From: Glaciecola amylolytica
Lineage (GTDB): Bacteria; Bacteroidota; Bacteroidia; Flavobacteriales_D; Crocinitomicaceae
DNA: 64,000 bases
Direction of reading: 5' to 3'
NCBI GenBank assembly: GCA_003856375.1
Contig: CP034120.1
Coordinates: 2,914,001 to 2,978,000 of the forward strand
The notes beneath the pieces are model-generated. The model saw only the letters and a list, made by a program, of their open reading frames with translations, ran no database searches and was not told the DNA's origin. Below are positions 56,484 to 56,930 of the stretch, piece by piece. The translations under genes and the position numbers were made by a program. The stretch's first letter is position 1. Each line of letters starts with the position of its first letter.

Positions 56484-56558
56484 GGGGGATTAGCTCAGTT
56501 GGTTCAGAGCGCCTGCCTTACAAGCAGGATGTCGGCGGTTCGAATCCGTCATTCCCCA
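56484..56558 (+). tRNA. tRNA-Val (anticodon UAC)
   Basis: 75 nt folding as a standard cloverleaf. Acceptor GGGGGAT pairs with ATTCCCC (one G-T), the D-stem is GCTC/GAGC, the anticodon stem CCTGC/GCAGG encloses CTTACAA with anticodon TAC, and the T-loop is TTCGAAT. The discriminator is A. The CCA end is not encoded, since CAG follows. It has its own promoter and a terminator. Its 3' 31 nt recur exactly at 56898-56928. Confidence 0.96.
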
Positions 56559-56564
56559 CAGAAG

Positions 56565-56596
56565 AAAAAGCCTTGCAAATTTTGCAAGGCTTTTTT
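56565..56596 (+). terminator. Terminator of tRNA-Val
   Basis: AAAAGCCTTGCAAA and TTTTGCAAGGCTTTTTT are inverted arms directly behind the tRNA. The T run ends about 23 bp before the GIY-YIG start codon. Confidence 0.88.
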
Positions 56597-56618
56597 GTTT
56601 GTATAAAACTTACTATCC

Positions 56619-56888
56619 ATGTTCTATACTTATATTCTCCATTCCAGGACAAGAGATAAATTCTATATTGGAGCATCTGAAAATCCGGAAGAGAGACTCA
56701 AAAAGCATAACAATAAAAACAAAGGTTTTACAAATCAAGCTCAGGATTGGAAAATTGTCTTTAGACAATCTTTTCCTACAAAAAAAGAAGCTCTTGATTA
56801 TGAATTGCAAATTAAAAAGTGGAAATCCAGAAAGAAAATCGTTCAACTTATTAGTGACTCAGTTGATTCAGAGCGTCCCGATGCATAG
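56619..56888 (+). CDS. Small GIY-YIG nuclease inserted behind tRNA-Val
   Basis: 89 residues, a single GIY-YIG domain. YTYIL (residues 3-7) and FYIG (14-17) form the GIY-YIG pair, followed by ENPEERLKKHN (21-31) and FPTKKEALDYELQIKKWKSRKK (52-73) with the active-site Arg and Glu regions. It cuts DNA in its family; stand-alone members are often called UvrC-like, homing or mobile nucleases. Codons for the last ten residues (DSVDSERPDA) are read from a tRNA-like sequence. The gene sits between intact tRNA-Val and a defective copy of it, which suggests a tRNA-directed mobile element. Confidence 0.85.
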   Translation: MFYTYILHSRTRDKFYIGASENPEERLKKHNNKNKGFTNQAQDWKIVFRQSFPTKKEALDYELQIKKWKSRKKIVQLISDSVDSERPDA

Positions 56889-56930
56889 CAATCGGGAATG
56901 TCGGCGGTTCGAATCCGTCATTCCCCACCA
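56851..56930 (+). pseudogene. Defective tRNA-Val-like copy with encoded CCA
   Basis: 56858-56875 matches the tRNA-Val D-arm (17 of 18 bases) and 56898-56928 matches its 3' 31 nt exactly. The anticodon arm between them is 22 nt instead of 17, a 7-bp stem TCCCGAT/ATCGGGA around an 8-nt loop. The 5' acceptor strand is absent, replaced by GIY-YIG coding sequence. Unlike the intact tRNA it carries ACCA at the 3' end. It cannot fold as a normal tRNA and overlaps the GIY-YIG stop codon at 56886-56888. Confidence 0.85.

Follow-up and report, generated by a model that had tools for sequence, protein, structure and literature searches.

What does a small nuclease gene do between an intact tRNA gene and a defective copy of the same tRNA? 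The question is raised by a unit at positions 56484-56972 of the window, i.e. the whole 64 kb stretch of DNA analysed here. Its parts follow one another in the order tRNA-Val, terminator-like hairpin, GIY-YIG gene, hairpin-bearing copy of the neighbouring tRNA (hereafter tRNA*) and second terminator-like hairpin, as follows:

56484..56559, + strand: intact tRNA-Val(UAC) gene (ARAGORN; Rfam tRNA 72.3 bits)
56568..56597, + strand: first terminator-like hairpin, AAGCCTTGCAAATTTTGCAAGGCTT and a T run (from the sequence)
56619..56888, + strand: GIY-YIG nuclease gene of 89 aa, almost the catalytic domain alone
~56850..56928, + strand: tRNA*, which copies nt 6-76 of tRNA-Val except for a replaced anticodon arm (18 bits with the tRNA model, below the gathering score)
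56876..56897, no strand assigned: perfect hairpin TCCCGATGCATAGCAATCGGGA, i.e. TCCCGAT-GCATAGCA-ATCGGGA, in place of tRNA nt 29-46
56898..56928, + strand: direct repeat bounding the unit, 31 nt identical to 56529-56559 (read in the sequence)
56940..56972, + strand: second terminator-like hairpin, resembling the post-tRNA flank of one relative with an empty locus (G096) and unlike that of two others (G112 and G046)

A sequence-only reading had recognised the tRNA-Val, the GIY-YIG gene and a tRNA-like segment behind it, and all three are confirmed by ARAGORN, by PF01541 and by scoring of the copy. The perfect 31 nt repeat is present as described, and so is the D-arm stretch of 18 nt, CTCAGTTGRTTCAGAGCG, in which tRNA-Val and tRNA* differ by one base. 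The match of tRNA* to tRNA-Val is far above chance: it scores 91.5, and reversed tRNAs, used as controls, reach 22.5 at best within the 3 kb locus. At its 3' end the nuclease gene extends into tRNA*, and its stop codon sits in the hairpin loop. The last codons and the stop are indeed read from the copy, although these are about 12 codons and not the ten previously given. The layout had also been compared to a displaced 3' end of the tRNA. The 31 nt repeat agrees with this, but the anticodon arm is a hairpin with tRNA sequence on both sides, and tRNA* is more than a displaced 3' end because the hairpin is the key feature across relatives. The hairpin is the sole palindrome of its form across the 64 kb window (0.04 expected).

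The first terminator is common to other occupied loci of the genus (scores of 50-69 versus G059, G030, G088, G080 and G121). The insert is about 370 bp in size. Between the repeats, the nuclease gene is the sole ORF with a family match (overlapping ORFs in other frames left aside), in agreement with the earlier statement that the unit carries no integrase. No intron family is found among Rfam matches up to E 1 in 56300-57100, and a group I intron was rejected on this search. A 297-aa protein without Pfam match is encoded directly downstream (57360-58253). The 27 nt sequence TCCTCCCTTGAGGGAGGATTAAGGAGG at 57077-57103 occurs 7 times in the genome of the window with up to 2 mismatches; its only other exact copy is behind a tRNA-Phe / GIY-YIG locus (L003).

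The protein is assigned to the GIY-YIG nuclease superfamily by its conserved Tyr, Tyr/Gly, Arg and Glu residues. The PF01541 domain spans residues 1-73 of 89 (65 bits, E 7.6e-18), and Y5, Y16, G18, R26, H30 and E62, catalytic-type residues among them, are invariant in 16 proteins. The gene is a complete stand-alone ORF, as in free-standing homing endonucleases. It possesses no separate DNA-binding module beside the catalytic domain, and its C-terminal end is a tRNA-derived tail. An AlphaFold2 model (mean pLDDT 78.8, pTM 0.64, residues 85-89 below 50) contains strands at 2-9, 14-20 and 44-52 and helices at 23-32, 55-67 and 71-83. The closest solved sequences are UPF0213 protein BH0048 (E 7.2e-7) and SLX1 (E 2.3e-4). 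Substitution patterns point to purifying selection on the protein, with dN/dS of 0.08-0.31 in 12 of the 17 closest pairs and no computable value in the remaining 5, where synonymous sites are saturated. These sites are often near saturation even between closer proteins (pS 0.50-0.92 in 15 of 17 pairs).

The protein search covered 120 genomes of the family, 75 of which contain a match at E <= 1e-6. A search of genome contigs with the protein gave 21 loci, and 60 further places were added from the list of family genomes, best E-values first, leaving out the weaker remainder. The sample is thus built on relatives of the window's protein rather than on all GIY-YIG proteins. GIY-YIG domains were located in 118 loci by an iterated profile (146 matches, 136 distinct), and the association with tRNAs was counted for the 96 complete domains with at least 1 kb of upstream sequence. 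A tRNA on the same strand lies upstream within 150 nt in 60, within 600 nt in 78 and within 1 kb in 81 of the 96. Either side considered, 87 of 96 have a same-strand tRNA within 1 kb, a tRNA on the opposite strand occurs within this distance in one, and nine have no tRNA in the 1 kb searched. The background is 2 tRNAs per 182 kb (more than 1.5 kb from any GIY-YIG match). The sequence-only reading would have fallen if relatives showed no tRNA association, and this check came out in its favour. The nearest tRNA within 600 nt upstream (78 genes) is Val in 25 cases, Asn in 13, Met in 11, Asp in 9, Leu in 7, Arg in 5, Phe and Ala in 2 each, and Gln, Gly, His and Ser in one each.

The arrangement may extend beyond Bacteroidota. 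In a Patescibacteria MAG (L062:2396-2650), a GIY-YIG frame behind tRNA-Lys runs into a 15 nt near copy of the tRNA 3' end. At another locus (L061) the gene is located behind tRNA-Gln, and no tRNA copy was found there.

The survey of copies included the 81 genes that lie within reach of a tRNA and for which 200 nt or more of downstream sequence were available. A tRNA* is present downstream of the gene in 66 of them, reversed tRNAs yielding none, and is not detectable in the other 15. The local tRNA outscores every tRNA of another isotype in 65 of the 66 copies; the threshold is also reached in 166 of 810 trials with other isotypes, because tRNAs resemble one another. The tRNA 3' end is reached within 3 nt by 59 of 66 copies, and in 50 the alignment begins only at nt 7 or later, so these lack most of the 5' acceptor strand. 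An added hairpin occurs in 64 of 66 copies versus 8 of 66 intact tRNAs and 14% of shuffles, and the seven bases around the anticodon survive in just 6 of 66. In 56 of the 66 cases the stop codon falls in the range from 25 nt ahead of the hairpin's first base in tRNA* to 43 nt behind it, which bears out the previous impression that tRNA-derived tails are common among small GIY-YIG proteins. The arrangement is real and recurrent.

Both flanks of the hairpin were compared with the local tRNA. Directly 3' of the hairpin, no other tRNA gives a better match than the local one in 15 of 17 Val-type loci (0/2000 permutations) and in 7 of 7 Met-type loci (4/2000); the 7 Asp-type loci show no such preference (301/2000). 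On the 5' side, the local tRNA is preferred in Val (0/2000 permutations) and Asp (20/2000), with no signal of it in the Met group (2000/2000). According to these permutations, the resident tRNA either serves as template for the copies or homogenises them; in the Val group this concerns both flanks of the hairpin, in the Met and Asp groups a single flank. In the 17 Val-type copies the stem is paired in 99.2% of cells, with one mismatch. Five of the 7 stem pairs never vary; the two variable pairs (3 and 5 sequences) change on both sides. In copies of the Asp and Met types it is the 3' strand of the anticodon stem that has given way to the hairpin, and the cloverleaf is not restored.

Hairpins differ in position and sequence between isotypes. 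The Val type possesses TCCCGA..TCGGGA or TTCCGA..TCGGAA at nt 27-46 in 18 of 21 entries (L029, L051 and L056 differ). The Met type has its hairpin at nt 38-48 in 8 of 9 entries, with the exception of L127 from another clade; four Met hairpins begin with TCCGTCAG and the rest are variants of it (TCCG..). In the Asp type, CCCCAA..TTGGGG (TCCCCAA) starts from nt 38-39 in 7 of 9 entries, and both entries of L058 have the T-arm replaced instead. Asn copies contain TCCCGCA..TGCGGGA types (type 1) near nt 24-34 in one clade, and TCCCGA types at nt 33-44 or 65 in other clades. The Leu hairpin is located at nt 65-73 in 4 of 7 entries. On the nuclease tree, pruned to 58 tips, character changes were counted versus shuffled tips: the isotype changes 16 times (shuffled mean 35.0, minimum 30), the replaced arm 18 times (mean 30.2, minimum 23) and the first hairpin bases 20 times (mean 30.4, minimum 27). 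According to these counts, the isotype and both the position and the sequence of the hairpin track the phylogeny of the nuclease, with exceptions. In Flavobacterium fryxellicola (L057), the nuclease groups with the Val clade (support 0.92) and its gene lies behind tRNA-Arg(TCT), with a Val-type hairpin at nt 30-45 of the Arg tRNA copy. In this clade, TCCCGA..TCGGGA is thus retained in the anticodon arm; nuclease, hairpin and position stay together, and the tRNA flanks switch to the local tRNA. That T-loop-type clades span more isotypes was considered and not supported when compared.

Of 14 genomes of the genus, 11 contain a tRNA-Val match at E <= 1e-12 and were used to compare the folC - tRNA-Val locus (states judged by eye); the other 3, without such a match, were left out. 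The window-type unit is present in the genome of the window (G000), G030 and G059. A second nuclease type with a split T-loop occurs in G080 and G121, and G088 has a truncated gene like the second type. G010 possesses a third nuclease type plus an upstream scar, G070 a scar alone. Neither gene nor downstream copy is found in G096, G112 and G046 in the 800 nt inspected by eye. The locus is polymorphic, with occupied and empty alleles at one site as in homing elements. The sequence-only reading held that strains without the gene should not retain the second tRNA-like copy. This applies to G096, G112 and G046, as judged by eye, but only in part to the genus, since G070 and G010 carry a scar without the window-type nuclease.

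The unit is bounded by tRNA 3' ends, and the tRNA-Val of the window is 100% identical to that of the empty G096. The G096 flank scores 42 versus the window's post-tRNA* flank (0/500 shuffles) and 25 versus the first terminator. The flanks of the empty G112 score 26 (second flank) and 28 (first terminator), those of G046 22 and 30, i.e. only one of the three empty genomes fits the second flank of the window better than the first. Presence and absence fit loss by recombination between direct repeats as well as gain. G096 was either never occupied or lost its unit by recombination between the repeats.

Units are not restricted to single copies. Of 111 loci, 22 contain at least 2 same-strand GIY-YIG stretches (fragments included) within 1 kb. 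L022 contains a row of gene-less tRNA* plus terminator units followed by one with a gene. Copies are located upstream of the intact tRNA, with the 5' part kept, at L032, L054 and L055, and tRNA* copies with a replaced T-arm precede the intact tRNA-Asp at L058. Some loci possess two intact tRNA-Val genes (L029, L055).

For the genome of the window, 30 of 33 listed tRNAs were surveyed; the list was drawn from 150 scored out of 341 tRNA candidates and may be incomplete. Hairpin-bearing fragments without a nuclease gene are present at Met (score 40), Arg(TCG) (36) and Leu(TAA) (43 and 28), and a short 3'-end repeat at Ser(TGA) (35). Reversed-tRNA controls reach at least 27 in 3 of 30 loci (highest 29); weaker matches at Ser(GGA), Phe and Ile are therefore not claimed. 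Among the tRNAs surveyed, hairpin-bearing scars outnumber the single live unit found in this genome. A tRNA-Arg-like copy at G000:C1:930432 (L143) has both anticodon arm and T-loop swapped for hairpins; ARAGORN finds no tRNA in this 3 kb locus. GIY-YIG domains occur at three other places of the same genome. One lies behind tRNA-Phe (L003); the other two belong to long reading frames, with no tRNA within the 3.2 kb read. The first of these (G000:C1:78369-78578, 245 nt behind tRNA-Phe) is a third kind of small GIY-YIG gene, also found in G010 179 nt behind tRNA-Val (L074). Neither of the two is accompanied by a clear tRNA copy.

The closest known system is SegB of T-even phages (T6), a free-standing GIY-YIG enzyme that cleaves within tRNA genes and, via homologous recombination, leads to tandem amplification of a tRNA segment; its genes are enriched near tRNAs of many isotypes (PMC13096335). 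Its authors state there that free-standing enzymes cut donor alleles poorly (PMC13096335). The likeness consists in a free-standing GIY-YIG gene beside tRNA genes of many isotypes, with tandem arrays observed and cutting presumed in our case. SegB is a phage gene, whereas the proteins of the present units are encoded on chromosomes and contain hardly anything besides the catalytic domain. We interpret the SegB motif, RAWTSGAAC, as the opposite-strand sequence of the T-loop, an element that is retained in the tRNA* of the window. Hairpin-marked tRNA copies are not described in the consulted parts of that report (PMC13096335), and such a copy is a feature of its own among free-standing, tRNA-associated GIY-YIG elements. 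No description of hairpin-marked tRNA copies with GIY-YIG genes was found in full-text searches of the literature, and the unit looks like an undescribed kind of selfish element in tRNA genes.

What, then, is the unit? Its anatomy and recurrence, the clade-specific hairpin position and sequence, the resemblance of the copies to the tRNA beside them, most evident in the Val group, purifying selection on the protein and turnover at one site are the observations to be accounted for. We give an even chance to the explanation that the unit of terminator, GIY-YIG gene and tRNA* is a chromosomal, selfish, free-standing homing-type element keyed to tRNA genes, in which the target is replaced by a hairpin. 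Such a unit would reside directly behind tRNA genes and spread or persist via nuclease-provoked recombination there, each nuclease clade being keyed mostly to one tRNA isotype. The hairpin would replace the target segment in the copy, i.e. the anticodon arm for the window's clade and the 3' side of the anticodon arm, the D-arm or the T-loop for others. With this segment replaced, tRNA* would no longer be a target nor a tRNA, and the intact neighbouring tRNA would keep the host alive. Cutting by the nuclease would take place in the tRNA gene, at the very segment replaced in the copy, and repair would insert, multiply or remove units. The tRNA sequence on both sides of the hairpin would provide homology for repair, which would explain why tRNA* follows the local tRNA, the tandem arrays and possible clean deletion. 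We infer DNA cleavage, cleavage at the replaced segment, active spread and the nuclease as driver of mobility by analogy with SegB.

Several points weigh on this explanation. Among them are the near restriction of the protein to its catalytic domain, the presence and absence pattern that suits loss as well as gain, the 15 of 81 genes lacking a tRNA*, the 9 of 96 lacking a tRNA nearby, the tRNAs of other isotypes that reach the threshold, and the missing own-tRNA signal on one flank in the Asp and Met groups. Self-cutting is unexplained by it, because the intact tRNA still holds the presumed target and is identical to the tRNA of the empty G096; either donor alleles would be cut poorly, or the site would be the hairpin rather than the tRNA. 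Further, a known vehicle is lacking, as phage and plasmid searches are nearly empty: 50,697 phage records contain no relative at E 1e-3, 72,556 plasmid records a single weak one (31% identity, E 8e-4), and IMG/VR one partial match. Phage or plasmid cargo was rejected on the same searches.

The hairpin itself may be the cognate site of the nuclease, as folded single strand or cruciform, a reading that we consider rather unlikely. The tRNA* would then be a recombination site framed by tRNA homology, and arrays would be rows of sites, loosely comparable to integron cassettes. Hairpin sequences agree with it in being conserved within clades and different between them (Val TCCCGA, Asp TCCCCAA, Met TCCG.., Asn type 1 TCCCGCA), and so do the five of 7 stem pairs that are constant in 17 Val-type copies despite synonymous sites that are often near saturation. 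The nearest solved relatives also speak for it, being UPF0213 proteins and SLX1, the latter titled a structure-specific endonuclease. GIY-YIG 'Ssn' nucleases reportedly cut single-stranded DNA at repeated sites in Neisseria, which would likewise favour it. Against a hairpin site, the tRNA* hairpin of two Cyclobacterium genomes, TTCCGA..TCGGAA, is not enriched elsewhere in them (4 and 6 sites, with 21 and 32 for the control), and there is thus no visible co-evolution of the nuclease with palindromes across the genome. In a related formulation, to which we assign a possible, though clearly less than even, standing, the units form a recombinase-less class of elements in Bacteroidota and neighbours, whose nuclease domain would recognise its own hairpin in a disabled tRNA copy and hop via tRNA homology; the flanking tRNA sequence would be a homology arm that travels with the unit and lets it settle behind tRNA genes, multiply there and move from one to another. 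Palindromes of the form TCCCGA-N2..16-TCGGGA occur 0 to 78 times per family genome, often above the reversed-pattern control, with a median of 10 in the 75 genomes with the gene versus 3 in the 45 without (kinship uncorrected, tRNA* copies included). The genome of the window has 31, versus 3 control sites; 6 of the 31 lie within 400 nt of one of the 33 listed tRNAs (0.17 expected) and 25 away from them. They are not claimed as repeats of the nuclease, as the variant hairpin is not enriched in Cyclobacterium.

Dispersed TCCCGA palindromes (31 versus 3 control sites) are also what a passive by-product would build on, in which unequal exchange duplicates tRNA 3' regions, common palindromes disable the copies and GIY-YIG genes accumulate. 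Scars of tRNA* without nuclease, e.g. at the Leu(TAA) and Met tRNAs of the window's genome, suit this origin, but clade-specific hairpin position and sequence, the near-universal hairpin and purifying selection need a shared cause, and we regard it as improbable. Still less probable is a system at the RNA level, with a protein that cleaves tRNA and a transcribed tRNA* as decoy or antitoxin. The replaced arm of the Val type still forms an arm, so that a tRNA-like fold is possible, and tRNA* and gene share a strand; yet the hairpins of Asp and Met do not restore the cloverleaf, most of the 5' acceptor strand is missing in 50 of 66 copies, and SLX1 acts on DNA. Amplification of tRNAs useful to the host, as by SegB for phage T6 under a tRNA-cutting defence, is very improbable: tandem arrays and the two intact tRNA-Val genes at L029 and L055 would be expected from it, but the anticodon-loop 7-mer is lost in 60 of 66 downstream copies, which therefore do not raise the dosage of functional tRNA. 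A displaced 3' end of the integrase type was rejected as insufficient, given the D-arm and hairpin of the copy, the copies upstream of the tRNA and the scars without nuclease.

The selfish homing-type element, our preferred reading, has partial parallels elsewhere. Textbook homing endonucleases usually possess a separate DNA-binding module beside the catalytic domain, whereas the nuclease here hardly extends beyond the latter. UPF0213 entries, which with SLX1-type proteins comprise the closest solved sequences, are similarly small (96-107 residues); to our knowledge neither family is associated with tRNAs or hairpin-marked copies. Ssn nucleases share the GIY-YIG superfamily and repeated hairpin-like genomic sites, and are not known to be tied to tRNA genes. 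Integrase-borne islands that target tRNA genes likewise leave an intact tRNA and a downstream 3' repeat, with direct repeats bounding the insert, here of 31 nt. They differ in carrying their own site-specific recombinase, in contrast to the integrase-less insert of about 370 bp described here, whose copy possesses a D-arm and a foreign hairpin and which also occurs in arrays and with upstream copies. Integron cassettes are small tandem units too, each of an ORF and a structured site; in the arrays inspected here, however, only GIY-YIG ORFs and no integron integrase were noticed, and the site is a tRNA copy.

If the preferred reading is true, the tRNA genes of many bacteria in the group are colonised by selfish nuclease elements without integrase, which write a readable mark into a spare tRNA copy, namely a hairpin that, like its position in the tRNA, is specific to the clade. 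With this mark, the target of each nuclease would be predictable from sequence alone, yielding a set of minimal GIY-YIG nucleases with predicted sites. At 26 of 111 loci a GIY-YIG stretch is located within 260 nt of the end of the available sequence, which such elements may explain. They would explain the odd tRNA-derived protein tails, and may explain the tRNA scars.
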